From NCBI GenBank assembly GCA_014584695.1, contig JACTMI010000010.1, positions 124,001 through 188,000 on the forward strand: a stretch of DNA of 64,000 bases. Direction: 5' to 3'. Every line of letters begins with the position of its first letter. The first letter of the stretch is position 1. This DNA is from Acidobacteriota bacterium. GTDB taxonomy: Bacteria; Acidobacteriota; Thermoanaerobaculia; Multivoradales; JAGPDF01. The notes under the pieces are model-generated. The model ran no database searches and had not been told where the DNA came from. It saw only the letters and a list, made by a program, of their open reading frames with translations. This document shows, in pieces, positions 17,659 to 32,959 of the stretch. The translations under genes and the position numbers were made by a program.

Positions 17659-17682
17659 GGCGGCGAGAGCCGCCTTTTTTTT
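17659..17682 (+). terminator. Orphan intrinsic terminator on the plus strand
   Basis: Perfect 6-bp stem GGCGGC/GCCGCC with loop GAGA (17659-17674) followed by eight T (17675-17682). It is the only strong plus-strand U-tract in the region, yet no plus-strand gene ends nearby; the nearest upstream one is arginase, 1.8 kb away. It may close a small RNA starting between about 17520 and 17650. Confidence 0.7.
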
Positions 17683-17785: not shown

Positions 17786-17814
17786 AAAAAGAGGGGCGGC
17801 CGGAGCCGCCCCTC
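17786..17814 (-). terminator. Intrinsic terminator of the TonB-dependent receptor gene
   Basis: On the minus strand: GAGGGGCGGC, loop TCCG, GCCGCCCCTC, then five T. This perfect 10-bp stem lies 39 nt after the stop codon at 17853. Confidence 0.9.
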
Positions 17815-26014: not shown

Positions 26015-26946
26015 GCTCGACCGCCCCGCCGATGGCCGCCGGCGCGCCCCCGTCCGAGCGCCCGACTCTGCTCTCCGCGGAGCCGTGGGATGCCGCGTCG
26101 GAGCTCGGCAGCTGGCTCGCGCCCACATCGCCGCCGGCCGAAGACGAGTTGCTCGGGCGCGCGGCCGCGGTCGCCCGGCGCGGGCTCGCCGACGCCGCCG
26201 CGGCCCTCGGCCTGCTGCCGGCGCGCGAGCGCCGCCGAGCCGAGCTGCTCTTCGTCTGGACGCGGGCGCTGTTGCGCACCGCCGCCGAGCCGGATGCGCC
26301 GGCCACCCGGGTCGCGCGCATCCATCGCGCGGCATTCCACCTCGCTCGCGCCCTGGCGGGCGAGCCCGCCGAGAGCGCCTTCCTGCGCCTGCTCGCCGCC
26401 GAATCGGCGCGCAGGACTTTCGGCCGCGCGGCGCTCGACGGCCTGCTCGCCGCCGCGCGCGAATGGGCGGAGGCGCCCCGCGCGGCGACCCCCGAGGCCG
26501 ACGCCGAGCGCTGGCAGGCGCTCGCGCACGCGCTGGCAGCCGCGCTGGCGGGCGCGGAGCCGGCGCCGGCCACCGTCGATCTGGCCGCCGGTCTCGGCCG
26601 GCTCGGCCGCCTGCTCGCGCTGCCGGAGGAGCTCGCCCAGCGCCGCTGCGGGCTGGCGCTGTCGGTGCTGCCCGAGCCCCTGCAGTACCGCCGCGAAGAC
26701 GAGATCGTGGCCGCCGTCGTCGCCGAGGCCGAGGCGCTGCGCCCGCTGCTGCTGCGTGGCGCCCGCGCGGCGGCCGAGGTGCCGCTCACCTTCCGCCGCC
26801 CGCTCGTCTACCTGCTGCCGATCGCGCTCGAGCTTCTGGGCGCCATCGAGGAGCGGCCGCGCGAGCTGCTGCGCCGCGCGCCCCGGCTGTCGTTCTGGTC
26901 GCGCCGGCGCAGCTACTGGCGCGCCCGCTTCACGCCGCTCGGCTGA
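26011..26946 (+). CDS. Uncharacterised helical protein, translationally coupled to the M24 peptidase
   Basis: 311 residues, Ala/Leu/Arg-rich and almost wholly alpha-helical by composition. The TTG start overlaps the upstream stop (TTGA); ATG at 26032 is an alternative. The spacing of its conserved-looking stretches (ALAGEPAESAFLRLLAA, FGRAALDGLLAAA, LGRLGRLLALPEEL) is reminiscent of squalene/phytoene synthase-fold proteins. The Asp-rich substrate motifs of that family are absent, so I do not assign that function. Its 3' end overlaps the convergent DtxR gene by 34 nt. Codon use fits the neighbours, so it is a real gene. Confidence 0.65.
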   Translation: MSSTAPPMAAGAPPSERPTLLSAEPWDAASELGSWLAPTSPPAEDELLGRAAAVARRGLADAAAALGLLPARERRRAELLFVWTRALLRTAAEPDAPATRVARIHRAAFHLARALAGEPAESAFLRLLAAESARRTFGRAALDGLLAAAREWAEAPRAATPEADAERWQALAHALAAALAGAEPAPATVDLAAGLGRLGRLLALPEELAQRRCGLALSVLPEPLQYRREDEIVAAVVAEAEALRPLLLRGARAAAEVPLTFRRPLVYLLPIALELLGAIEERPRELLRRAPRLSFWSRRRSYWRARFTPLG

Positions 26947-27611
26947 TCCCCCTCGAGCGCGACCAGGATCTTCGCCGCCGCCGGCAGTCCCACCGCCAGC
27001 CGCGCCCCCGATCCGAGCTCGAGCGCGAGGGTGCCCGCCGCCTCGTCGCGATCGAGCACGTGCAGGAGGGTCCCCGGCGCCAGGCCGGTGACGTCGATCC
27101 AGCGCAAGAACCCGGCATCCTGGTCGAGCACGCGCGCGACCCGCAGCGACCGCCGAGCCGGCACCCCGGCCAGGGGCACGACCGCCGGCACGGCGACCTG
27201 GCCGGCGGCGGTCGGGATCGGATCGCCGTGCGGGTCGACCGCGGGGCGTCCGAGCATCTCGTCGATCCGGTCGACCAGCCGCTCCGACACCGCGTGCTCG
27301 AGCCGCTCCGCCTCGTCGTGCACTTCGCTCCAGTCGTAGCCCAGGACCTCGACCAGGAAGAGCTCGATCAGCCGGTGCCGCCGCAGCACGTGGAGGGCGA
27401 GCCGCCGCCCCGCCGCCGAGAGCGTCGCGCCGGCGTAGGCCTCGTAGTCGACCAGCCCGGCTTCCGCGAGCGTCTTCATCATGGCCGTCACCGACCCGGG
27501 CGTCACGCCCAGGGCCGCCGCCACCGCGCCGGTGGCGACCCGCTCGCCCGGTGCGCTCTGCTCGCCGATCAGGATCTGCTTGAGGTAGTCCTCGACGGTG
27601 GCGGTCGGCAC
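26913..27611 (-). CDS. DtxR/MntR-family metal-dependent repressor
   Basis: 232 residues from GTG 27611, which gives MPTATVEDYLKQIL, the standard DtxR N-terminus. The winged helix covers 1-65. The metal-binding and dimerisation region has HRLIELFLVEVLGYDW and EVHDEAERLEH, with Glu at the DtxR Cys102 position, the MntR-like state. DPHGDPIP and a C-terminal FeoA/SH3-like domain follow. It is the last gene of the feo operon, 10 nt after the outer-membrane protein, and probably represses iron or manganese genes when metal is plentiful, possibly including its own operon. Confidence 0.92.
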   Translation of the reverse strand: MPTATVEDYLKQILIGEQSAPGERVATGAVAAALGVTPGSVTAMMKTLAEAGLVDYEAYAGATLSAAGRRLALHVLRRHRLIELFLVEVLGYDWSEVHDEAERLEHAVSERLVDRIDEMLGRPAVDPHGDPIPTAAGQVAVPAVVPLAGVPARRSLRVARVLDQDAGFLRWIDVTGLAPGTLLHVLDRDEAAGTLALELGSGARLAVGLPAAAKILVALEGDQPSGVKRARQ

Positions 27612-27621
27612 GGCCTCGCCC

Positions 27622-28443
27622 TCAGCGGTCCAGTCGAATGGCGATGCCGACCCCGGCGAAGAAGTCCGGGGCGGCACCCGAGTAGCCGCGGCCGACGGCG
27701 GCGTCGAGTTGCACGCCGGGCCGCAGGCGGTACGTGACGCCACCGTCGAACGCGTGCGCCGACGGCGCGGGATCACTGGCCGGCAGGTCGCCGAACAGCT
27801 CCACGAAGAGGCCCCAGCGCGGGCCGAGGTCGAATCCGAGGGCTCCGGAGTAGACCCATCGGGTGAGCGTGCTCACCCCTCGCCGGCCGTCCTCGGAAGA
27901 GCCGCTCTCGAGACCGAGATTCCAGCTCCAGCCGGCCCACGCCGACAGATCGTGCGCGACGGCGAGCCGTGCGGAGAGGTCCGCGCGCGGCGAACCGAAA
28001 CCGCTCTTTCCCGCCGGCAACGTCGCGTGCACCAGGAGCGCGCTTCGCGCCTGGCCTCCACGCGCTTCGCCGAGCGCGAGCTTGAAGCCGGCCTCGGGGT
28101 CGCCGTGCCCGCGCTGGCTGAGGGAACCCGAATCCGAAGGGGCATCGACGGCGATCCGTCCGGGCCAGGCGAGGCGCAGCTCGAGCCGGGGCGTGACGCC
28201 GTAGCGCAGCAGCGTCGCCGGCGCTTCGCGCACCTCGAGCGCGCCGCTCGGCGTCTGCTCACGATGGTAGTGGCTGCCGATCTCGAGCTGCAGCGAGCCG
28301 AGCGGCACCACTTCCGCGGATTCGGTCTGGTCCGGGCGATCCGTGACCAGCTCCGCCTCGTGCTTCCCGATCGCGATCGGCAGCGCCGGCGCCGCGGTCG
28401 CGAGCAGGACGACGAAGGGGAGGAGCCGGCGCGGCGCTCGCAT
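27622..28443 (-). CDS. Outer-membrane transporter-like protein (Phenol_MetA_deg family)
   Basis: 273 residues. A signal peptide (about 1-23) is followed by the family-typical TDRPDQTESAEVVPLGSLQL and many alternating beta strands, ending in IAIRLDR. The family is annotated as putative outer-membrane transporters; function is unproven. Its ATG shares one base with the feoB stop (TGATG), so it is translated with feoB. The context suggests a role at the outer membrane in iron handling. Confidence 0.8.
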   Translation of the reverse strand: MRAPRRLLPFVVLLATAAPALPIAIGKHEAELVTDRPDQTESAEVVPLGSLQLEIGSHYHREQTPSGALEVREAPATLLRYGVTPRLELRLAWPGRIAVDAPSDSGSLSQRGHGDPEAGFKLALGEARGGQARSALLVHATLPAGKSGFGSPRADLSARLAVAHDLSAWAGWSWNLGLESGSSEDGRRGVSTLTRWVYSGALGFDLGPRWGLFVELFGDLPASDPAPSAHAFDGGVTYRLRPGVQLDAAVGRGYSGAAPDFFAGVGIAIRLDR

Positions 28444-30701
28444 CACCCGGTCACCAGTCGCCAGGTCTGGGCGACGAAGAAGCAGAGCACGAACCCCATC
28501 ACGACCGGCAGGAGCGCGGCGATCGTCGTCCACTTGACGCTCCGGGTCTCCTTCCAGATGGTGTAGATGGTGGTCGAGCAGGGGTTGTGAACGAGGCTGA
28601 AGAGCATCAGGCAGACGGCGGTCAGCAGCGTCCAGCCTCCGGCGGTCAGCAGCGCGGCGGTGTCGACGGTCGAGTCGAGCTCGAACATGACGCCGGCGCC
28701 CGCGCCGAAGCCGGTGGCGCCGGTGGTGAGCACGGTCAGCATCAGGAGGGTCGGCACCACGATCTCGTTGGCGGGGATCGCCACCAGGTAGGCGAGCAGG
28801 ATCACCCCCGAGAGGCCGATCCACCAGCCGAAGGGCTCCATGCCGCCGATCAGCCGCTCGGCGACGCTCACCCCGCCCCACTGGACGTTCGAGACCAGCC
28901 AGATCACGGCGCCCGCGGGCAGCGCGAAGACGACGGCGCGCCACAGCACCAGCAAAGTGCGGTCGATCAGCGAGGTGTAGAGCGTCCGCAGCACGCGCGG
29001 CGGCCGGTAGGGGGGCAGCTCGAGGCTGAACGCCGAGACCTCGCCGCGCAGGACGGTGCGCGACAGCAGCCAGGAGACCGCAAAGGTGAGGACGACCCCG
29101 AGCACCGCGACCGAGACCACGGCGAGCGCCGAGATCAGCCCGGCCAGGTGGGCCGGCGCCAGCGCGCCGATGAAGATCGAGGCGACCAGGATCTGGGTCG
29201 GCCAACGCCCGTTGCAGAGCGCGAAGTTGTTGGTGAGGATCGCGATCAGGCGCTCGCGCGGGCTCTCGATGATGCGCGTCGACACCACGCCCGCCGCGTT
29301 GCACCCCCACCCCATCGCCATGGTCAGCGCCTGCTTGCCGTGCGCGCCGGCGCGCCGGAAGGCGCGGTCGAGGTTGAAGGCGACGCGCGGCAGGTAGCCG
29401 AAGTCCTCGAGCAGGGTGAAGAGCGGAAAGAAGATCGCCATCGGCGGCAGCATCACCGAGATCACCCAGGCGGTCGCGAGGTAGACGCCGTCGACCAGCA
29501 GGCCCGCCAGCCACCAGGGCAGCCCGATCGCGCCGGCGCCACTCTGGAGCAGGGGGTGGAGGGTGTCGACCAGCAGGCTCGCGAGCAGTGACGACGGGAC
29601 GTTCGAGCCCGCGATCGTCAGCCAGAAGACGACGGTCAGCATGCCCAGCATCAGCGGGATGCCGAGCCAGCGGCTGGTGACCAGCCGGTCGAGCGCGCGG
29701 TCGAAGTCGAAGCGCGGCCGCTCTCCGGCGCGCGTCACGGCGCGATCCGCGAGGCGCGCCGCCTCGGTGTAGATCCCCTCCATCAGGTGCTGGTGGAAAT
29801 CGGGTCCGACCTGCCAGCGCAGGGTCGAGGCGTGCGCGAGGACTCTCTCGACGCCCGCCGCGGAGGGCCGCCCGGCAGCGCCGATCCGCGCGCCCGCCGG
29901 CGCCTCCGGTGCCCCGACCAGCGCGAGGCTCTCGAGCTCCCCGAGCTCGCCGGCCGCCAGCGCGGCGCCGATCCGTTGGTCGCCGTCGAGCAGCCGCAGC
30001 GCCACCCACTGGGCGTTCGGCAACTGCGGATGCAGCTCCCGCACCGCTTCGGTCAGCCGCGCCACCGCCCGCTCCAGCCCCGGCGATCCGCCGCCGACGC
30101 GGCGAGGCCGCGCCGCGCCATCGCCCGCCGCGACCTCCTGGATGGCCTGGATCAGCTCGGGCAGCCCTTCGCCGGAGCGCGCCGCCGTCGGCACCACCCG
30201 CACGCCCAGGTCGCGGGCGAGCCGGCGGGCGTCGACCGCGAGGCCGTGACGCCGCGCCTCGTCCATCAGGTTCAGGCAGACGACCGCGCGGTCGGTGATC
30301 TCGAGCACCTGGAGCACCAGGTTGAGGTTGCGCTCGAGGCAGTTCGCGTCGACGACGATCACCGTCACGTCGGGTCGGCCGAAGAGCAGGAAGTCGCGCG
30401 CCACCTCCTCGTCGGGGCTCGACGAGAGCAGCGAGTAGGTGCCGGGCAGGTCGACCAGCTTGAAGCGCCGGCCGCCGCTGGCGAAGGCGCCCTCGGCGCG
30501 GGTCACCGTCTTGCCCGGCCAGTTGCCGGTGTGCTGTCGCAGGCCGGTCAGGGCGTTGAAGACCGTGCTTTTGCCGGTGTTGGGATTGCCGGCCAGGGCG
30601 ACCACGTGATCGAAGCTCGACATGTCGACGCCGAGCTTGCGCAGGTTCCCGGCGTGGTGCGCGGGACAGGCGGCGCACGCCTCCGGGCTCGGGTGGCTCA
30701 C
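28443..30701 (-). CDS. feoB: Ferrous iron transporter FeoB
   Basis: 752 residues, full length. A Cys-containing N-terminus (CAACPAHH) precedes the G domain: G1 [10 protein letters not shown]3 DLPGTYS, G4 NLMDE. The membrane part shows the two gate-like repeats with GCN-containing [10 protein letters not shown]. It imports Fe2+ across the inner membrane, driven or gated by GTP. The GTG start overlaps the upstream TGA (GTGA), coupling it to the DtxR-FeoA fusion. No separate feoA gene exists; FeoA domains are supplied by the upstream fusion. Confidence 0.97.
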
Positions 30702-31757: not shown

Positions 31758-31786
31758 ATCATAAGTTTGAGTAATCAAAAAATCAA
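31758..31786 (-). promoter_or_regulatory. Sigma70-type promoter of the feo operon
   Basis: On the minus strand: -35 TTGATT (31781-31786), exactly 17 nt, -10 TATGAT (31758-31763). It sits in the only AT-rich island of the region, and transcription would start near 31751, about 25 nt before the ATG at 31726. Confidence 0.75.
31766..31779. promoter_or_regulatory. Candidate metal-repressor operator inside the feo promoter spacer
   Basis: TTTGAGTAATCAAA: arms TTTGA/TCAAA around 4 nt, lying wholly between the -35 and -10 elements. The position is ideal for repression, and the operon encodes two DtxR-family proteins. No other copy was seen in this window. Confidence 0.5.
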
Positions 31787-31802
31787 GCCCCAGGGAGGCT
31801 TG
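31777..31802 (-). terminator. Intrinsic terminator of the 5-oxoproline operon
   Basis: Minus strand: CAAGCC, loop TCCCTGG, GGCTTG (31784-31802), then ATTTTTT (31777-31783). It starts 18 nt after the PxpA-Nudix stop. The U-tract and stem overlap the -35 box of the feo promoter. Confidence 0.75.
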
Positions 31803-31819
31803 GCACGCTCGCACACTCC

Positions 31820-32959
31820 CTATTCCCGCTCGGGTCCGCCGAGCGCGCCCGCCAGCAGGGGGAGGATCGGCAGGTCGGCTTCGGGCCAGTCGAGGGCGGC
31901 GAGCTCGGCGGCGGCGAACCAGCCGCAGGCGTCGTGCTCGGCGAGGCGGAGCTCGCCGCCGCGGCGTCGAGCCCGATAGACGTCGAGGACGATCCGCCGG
32001 CCGTCGACCAGAGCGGTGCCGCGGCCGAGGTGAGCGCCGACCTCGAGCTCGAGGGCGAGCTCCTCGGCGGCTTCGCGCGCGAGCGCCGCCTCCGGCTCTT
32101 CCCCGGCATCGACCTTGCCTCCGGGAAACTCCCACTTGCCCGGCATCGACATCGCCGGCCCGCGCCGGGTGAGGAGCACCCGCGCCCCTTCGACCACCGC
32201 GGCGCCGACGACGTGGAGCTCCGCGATCGGCGGCAACCGCGCCGGCGCGGTCGCGGCGACGACGTCGAAGCCGGCGGTCTCGAGGCGCTGGCGGACCGCG
32301 CGGGCGATCGTGGCCGCGCCGGGACTGTCCGAGTGGACGCAGAGCGTGGCCACGCCGGCTCCGCCCGGGCGCGCCAGCGCCACCGCCTGGGCGGCTGCCG
32401 ACTCCGCTCCCAGCAGCGCGCCCGCGGTGCCGCGCGGCAGCAGAATGCCGTCGGCGCCATAGCCGCGATCGGCGAACTCCTCGGGGATCGCCGGCATCCG
32501 CCGCGCGCTGGCCGCTGCGAGCAGCGCCGAGCCCGGGAACCCGATCACCGGCAGCTCCGGGTCGAGCGCCGCCACCGCCGCCACGGCCGCCGCCGCCGCC
32601 GTGGCATCGCCGCTCAGCCGGTGGTAGAGCGCGCCGTGCGGCTTCCAGTGCGCGAGACTCAGGCCCTGCTCGACCGCCGCCGCCGCCAGCGCGCCGATCT
32701 GCCGCGCGACGAGCGCCGCGATCTCGCGCGCCCCGGCGCCGTATTCGACGCGCCCGAACCGTGCGCGGTCCTCGTAGCCGGGATGGGCGCCGGCGGCGAC
32801 GCCGCTCGCCCGGCAGAGGGCGAGCGCCGACCGCATCGAAGCCGCGTCGCCGGCGTGGCCGCCGCAGGCGATCGAGGCGCTGGAGATCCAGCTGAATAGC
32901 TTCGCAGAGTCGAATCCCTCGCCGGCATCGGCATTGAGGTCGATCCTCGGGCGCCTCAA
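31820..32959 (-). CDS. pxpA: 5-oxoprolinase subunit A fused to a Nudix hydrolase domain
   Basis: 379 residues. Residues 1-238 are PxpA (LamB/YcsF family): IDLNADAGEGFD, ACGGHAGD, AAGAHPGYEDR, WKPHGALY, CVHSDSPGA. Residues 246-379 are a MutT-like Nudix domain: LHVVGAAVVEGARVLLTRR, PGKWEFPGGK and a Nudix box from Gly281 (GKVDAGEE...REAAEEL). PxpA alone is about 250 residues. There is no stop, frameshift or Met between the halves. The TTG start overlaps the pxpC stop (TTGA). PxpABC cleaves 5-oxoproline to glutamate with ATP. The fused Nudix domain may clean up a nucleotide or simply share the transcript. Confidence 0.9.
   Translation of the reverse strand: MRRPRIDLNADAGEGFDSAKLFSWISSASIACGGHAGDAASMRSALALCRASGVAAGAHPGYEDRARFGRVEYGAGAREIAALVARQIGALAAAAVEQGLSLAHWKPHGALYHRLSGDATAAAAAVAAVAALDPELPVIGFPGSALLAAASARRMPAIPEEFADRGYGADGILLPRGTAGALLGAESAAAQAVALARPGGAGVATLCVHSDSPGAATIARAVRQRLETAGFDVVAATAPARLPPIAELHVVGAAVVEGARVLLTRRGPAMSMPGKWEFPGGKVDAGEEPEAALAREAAEELALELEVGAHLGRGTALVDGRRIVLDVYRARRRGGELRLAEHDACGWFAAAELAALDWPEADLPILPLLAGALGGPERE

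Follow-up and report, generated by a model that had tools for sequence, protein, structure and literature searches.

The window analysed here is a 64 kb stretch of an acidobacterial genome (G000:C6:124001-188000), with a GC content of 73% in a GC-rich genome. On its minus strand lies a feo operon that opens with a gene for a membrane-anchored DtxR-FeoA-FeoA protein, continues with feoB and a gene for a Phenol_MetA_deg protein, and closes with a gene for a soluble DtxR/MntR-like regulator (Table 1). The preceding operon ends in a gene that fuses PxpA (5-oxoprolinase subunit A) in frame to a NUDIX hydrolase domain; the same in-frame fusion occurs in G003 (G003:C332:2831-4021). At the G005 locus, a tblastn match to the Phenol_MetA_deg protein is absent and dtxR directly follows feoB. 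In G000 and G005 the feo operon includes the soluble dtxR gene; in G001 this gene stands immediately ahead of the anchored one. In the fragmented assemblies G003, G026, G027, and G032 the anchored gene was found and a soluble paralogue was not detected.

Table 1. Genes and sequence elements at the feo locus (window coordinates)
Feature	Coordinates	Strand	Remarks
Membrane-anchored DtxR-FeoA-FeoA protein, 342 aa	30698..31726	minus	first feo operon gene; Pfam, alignment, AlphaFold, Foldseek
feoB	28443..30701	minus	Pfam FeoB_N, Gate, FeoB_C; TIGR00437 above cut-off
Outer-membrane-type protein (Phenol_MetA_deg)	27622..28446	minus	Pfam; overlaps feoB end
Soluble DtxR/MntR-like regulator, one FeoA domain	26913..27611	minus	last operon gene; likely operator binder
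pxpA-NUDIX fusion	31820..32944	minus	last gene of preceding 5-oxoproline operon; adjacency also in G003
Terminator-like hairpin CAAGCCTCCCTGGGGCTTG	31802-31784	minus	8 pairs, loop 3
T6 tract	31782-31777	minus	after hairpin and one A
-35 element TTGATT	31786-31781	minus	17-bp spacer to -10
-10 element TATGAT	31763-31758	minus	
Palindrome TTTGATTACTCAAA (arms TTTGA and TCAAA around TTAC)	31779-31766	minus	DtxR/MntR-type candidate operator; T-rich left arm reaches 31782
Ancestral -10 position	31773-31768	minus	reads TACTCA in window
First ATG of feo operon	31726	minus	

The minus strand reads TTGATT-17-TATGAT at 31786-31758, as a preliminary description of this DNA had proposed, and this is the sole promoter-like match within 9 kb, where shuffles average 0.1. 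The palindrome occupies 14 of the 17 spacer bases, placing an AT-rich inverted repeat across the core promoter of a metal-uptake gene. A genome-wide search for TTTGA-N4-TCAAA, which the same description had put forward as a check, returned the feo site as the only exact occurrence in 4,352,636 bases, and still a single site when one mismatch was allowed.

Conservation of the palindrome was computed from orthologues of the first gene. Of 72 genomes of the order, 63 gave a match to it, 37 of them better than 1e-50, and 36 of these 37 upstream regions were used, with only G-genome loci counted. Left out of the 36 were G054, a C-terminal fragment, and G042, an N-terminal fragment at a contig end that has a site of its own, TTTGAGTACACTAA. 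An operator was called where 10 or more of 12 positions fit the dyad TTWRRNTANYYWAA in the 250 bp upstream; by this measure, 32 of the 36 full-length orthologues carry one, against a background of 0.00075 per random 250-bp stretch from the same loci, and conservation at orthologous promoters is thus beyond chance. The four orthologues without an operator are L015 (G001), L023 (G026), L026 (G027), and L043 (G017). We note that L023, L026, and L043 share TTGTTATGCTC or TTGCTATGCTC upstream instead, which mark a different promoter and perhaps a different regulator, and that the outgroup orthologues L065 and L067 have another dyad, TTAACTGGGATTAA or TTAACCTAGGTTAA, just before the start. By a symmetric matrix built from distinct sites outside the window genus, the window site scores 31.2 bits and the next-best site in 64 kb scores 2.7; the top match at both congeners' loci is likewise the feo site.

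A scan of 71 genomes across the order with TTWRNNTANNYTAA gave a match in 43; in 19 of 20 g23 genomes the pattern occurs at exactly one place genome-wide, and in all 19 that place is before the feo gene. Outside these families, several larger genomes contain TTWRNNTANNYTAA about as often as chance would give, and less often than the reversed control. In the window genome, TTWRNNTANNYWAA matches once and TTTRN6YAAA has two places versus nine for its reversed control. The exact, one-mismatch, and degenerate-pattern searches thus gave no sign of a multi-gene DtxR regulon under this operator in the window genome. The palindrome is well supported by sequence as a nonchance, conserved candidate operator of the DtxR type.

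The preliminary description also held that the terminator of the 5-oxoproline operon overlaps the -35 box. The overlap itself stands, with the TTG of the -35 element coming from the right arm of the hairpin and its TT from the T-run, and a GC-rich stem does lie directly before a run of T, as in an intrinsic terminator. However, the supposed U-tract is the T-rich arm of the operator, and the hairpin is species-specific. Runs of six T occupy the left arm of the operator in G003, G019, G021, and G032 without the window hairpin, and because the run is present in relatives that lack the hairpin, we read it as operator sequence and not as independent evidence for a terminator. A terminator inherited with the pxp operon can be eliminated, as G003 has the same upstream gene and a terminator-like match is absent between its pxpA-NUDIX and feo genes. 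The hairpin is the weakest element of the arrangement, with modest statistical support: a compact stem of -10.0 kcal/mol or lower beside a fixed point turns up in 2.2% of 20,000 segments taken at random from the window and in 1.6% of 5,000 shuffles. Looser fold measures are unremarkable (25% among 1,500 segments drawn at random; for the 49 nt as a whole, z = 0.11), so that broad RNA-fold support for a terminator is negative.

It is conceivable that the hairpin and T6 do terminate transcription, with 3′ ends lying within the feo promoter and hindering initiation, a proposal compatible with our preferred reading and one that we lean against without finding it far-fetched. The compact 8-pair stem beside T6, expected about 2% of the time by chance, its location after the pxpA-NUDIX stop codon and before the feo promoter, and the hairpin that likewise precedes the window's other run of T6 or longer all speak for it, but the T-tract is accounted for by the operator arm, G003 lacks a counterpart, and the fold over the whole 49 nt is ordinary. 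The hairpin and T6 may act as a weak terminator for the pxp operon; that termination interferes with feo initiation is conjecture. Elsewhere in the window, stable hairpins of -12.5 and -24.2 kcal/mol precede a T8 at 17675 (plus strand) and a T5 at 17790 (minus strand), respectively, and these are probable terminators on opposite strands.

The window genome encodes only two proteins with the DtxR metal/dimerization domain (PF02742), both in the feo operon, so that a candidate cognate regulator is encoded. Either had been named as a possible binder, but the two are unequal candidates. In the soluble protein, the P, T, M, and K of the recognition helix are each present in 30/30 aligned relatives. 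In the anchored paralogue, the recognition-helix residues are replaced, and one position holds E or D in 35 of the 42 rows, a tally that omits L055-L057, L059-L061, and L063 (genome_contigs loci) as apparent copies of G-genome loci. Of the 30 soluble dtxR genes, 8 have a TTTR-N6-YAAA dyad of their own in the 160 bp ahead of them, where 0.003 is expected, as exemplified by TTTTGAGTAGTCAAAA in G023; in G001, a different palindrome precedes the gene. TonB-dependent receptors are typical metal-uptake targets, and the same operator class stands directly before TonB-dependent receptor genes in G014 (L104 site 1639), G013 (L108 site 3531), and G064 (L105 site 3372). A search of the order genomes gave no full-length match to the anchored DtxR-FeoA protein in G013 or G014, and the partial match in G014 was read as an ABC-3 permease fusion. 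Operator-pattern sites at G035:C27, G014:C50, and G011:C229, directly downstream of which there is no clear uptake gene, were set aside, and one in G008 precedes an ABC ATPase gene. Because of its conserved helix, the dyads upstream of soluble dtxR genes, its placement in the operon, and the receptor operators in G013 and G014, the soluble DtxR is the likely binder and is favored over its anchored paralogue.

The anchored DtxR-FeoA-FeoA protein could instead be the repressor that binds the operator, either intact or once freed by proteolysis in the manner of chlamydial YtgR. Its gene is immediately downstream of the operator in the 32 of 36 cases, it keeps the DtxR fold by Foldseek and the E-x-x-E-H metal motif, and there is a precedent in YtgR, which is cut from a permease fusion and acts as the repressor of its own promoter (PMC5599777). 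We regard this role as unlikely, given the replaced recognition helix relative to canonical regulators, the lack of a match to the Pfam DtxR N-terminal model, and the receptor operators of the same class in G013 and G014. The anchored protein is itself conserved, being full-length in 36 genomes of the order, with relatives at 40-57% identity in records whose metagenome-bin titles read Myxococcales, Bacillota, Calditrichota, and Bryobacteraceae. Its AlphaFold model has a pLDDT of 85.5 and an N-terminal helix at residues 3-22, and Foldseek matches it to DtxR/IdeR/MntR structures, the best being 5zr6, a Mn-dependent repressor.

The preliminary description placed the palindrome in the promoter spacer. 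This applies to the window species but fails as a rule, as scoring of two registers in the 32 operator-bearing upstream regions makes plain. Every one of the 11 operator-bearing non-f7 relatives favors the ancestral register: a -10 of the form TAnnnT lies inside the operator, and a -35-like hexamer precedes it by 16-17 bp (nine have TTGAC or TCGAC, the remaining two TTGCGC and TTGCTA). In f7, the 20 sites read TAGACT or TAGGCT when placed in the ancestral register, and their -35 is mostly weak in that register and weak in either. The window alone favors the shifted register, scoring 9/12 in the register 10 bp downstream versus 4/12 in the ancestral one. When the window is aligned pairwise with G003 and G005, in alignments that are short and gapped elsewhere too, a gap of about 9-10 bp falls between the -35 and the operator, and G003 reads TTTGAT opposite the window's TATGAT. 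Because the non-f7 relatives favor the ancestral register, the alignments place a gap between -35 and operator, and G003 has TTTGAT, the spacer arrangement appears genuine for the window species yet derived, one species standing against two congeners. TTGATT is probably a remnant of an ancestral TTGACA that was shifted 9-10 bp toward the operator. The arrangement may have arisen more than once, since TTGATT, as read by eye, also lies close to the operator in the receptor promoters of G013 and G014.

It is quite improbable that the window still uses the ancestral register, with TACTCA inside the operator as its -10 and TATGAT incidental. Such continuity would agree with the register that all other non-f7 orthologues with the operator favor by sequence, but in the window that register lacks a -35 (best CTCCCT), its -10 ends in A, and it scores less than half of the shifted one. 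Control of the palindrome by a Fur-family protein is very improbable: the genome encodes two Fur proteins and Fur often controls feo, but the dyad class also occurs upstream of soluble dtxR genes, and the palindrome is unlike what we take to be a Fur box. An FNR/CRP-type site can be eliminated because the TGA-N4-TCA spacing differs by two bases from that which we presume for the FNR box.

Taken together, we think it likely that the element is a metal-dependent operator-promoter of feo, repressed by the soluble DtxR in a single-target loop, whose promoter has moved by about one helical turn. The soluble DtxR/MntR-like protein, loaded with Fe(II) and/or Mn(II), would bind TTTGATTACTCAAA and block RNA polymerase; metal repression of feo, as the preliminary description anticipated, is well supported by the sequence, and the predicted occupancy would cover the promoter. 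The loop is probably closed and confined to one target because the regulator sits in the operon it would repress and the site pattern is unique in the genome. In the ancestor, a -10 within the operator's right half would have lain 16-17 bp from a -35 TTGACA. The stretch from the -35 to the operator would then have lost a net 9-10 bp, and this, together with a base change to TATGAT, would have moved the promoter, and with it the predicted start site, about one helical turn downstream and left the operator in the spacer. The same shortening would have brought the GC-rich stem beside the T-rich arm of the operator, creating a possible weak pxp terminator.

A wider proposal, which we offer tentatively and consider doubtful as a whole, divides the work between the paralogues: the anchored one, its canonical DNA-reading helix lost but its metal site kept, would sense metal at FeoB and shut transport, the soluble one would shut transcription at the sole genomic operator, and one small deletion would have slid the promoter by one helical turn and made the T-rich arm a terminator U-tract. 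What emerges as a well-supported candidate is a metal operator-promoter of a known kind, present in one copy, whose promoter has apparently shifted in this species alone. These results give an uncultured group of Acidobacteriota a candidate metal operator and name the likely binder among two DtxR paralogues. They also offer an apparent natural case of promoter repositioning by one helical turn around a fixed operator, and they mark the conserved anchored DtxR-FeoA-FeoA protein as a candidate, open to testing, for controlling FeoB directly in response to metal.

The literature surveyed, as far as its accessible text goes, included no study of this operator or of a DtxR-FeoA protein anchored in the membrane, with PgMntR and YtgCR the nearest. 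The helix of the soluble DtxR is close to that of DR2539 from Deinococcus radiodurans (PDB 8pw0), which has R in place of K. DR2539 is described in PMC3327659 as a DtxR-family repressor that responds to both Mn and Fe and whose site in an uptake promoter is an inverted repeat; because it responds to both metals, Fe or Mn are both possible for the window repressor. The target of DR2539 is mntH, versus feo here, and the sequence comparison covers the recognition helix. PgMntR of Porphyromonas gingivalis combines DtxR with a twin C-terminal FeoA in an operon with a FeoB-type transporter (PMC4805248); the word "transmembrane" is absent from that paper, and the DNA site is not presented there as a palindrome. 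YtgCR of Chlamydia trachomatis, per PMC5599777 and PMC7755916, ties a DtxR domain to a membrane segment, as does the window's anchored protein. YtgCR, however, is an ABC-3 permease fused to DtxR, whereas the window protein has one N-terminal helix, DtxR, and two FeoA domains. The order does contain ABC-3 metal permeases with a C-terminal DtxR domain (L112 1001-2353, plus strand; L114 4165-5499, minus strand; also L113 and L115). The YtgR operator lies beside an alternative promoter, and the bound repressor also inhibits upstream read-through, as stated in PMC7755916; by analogy, we conjecture that the window site could insulate feo from pxp read-through.
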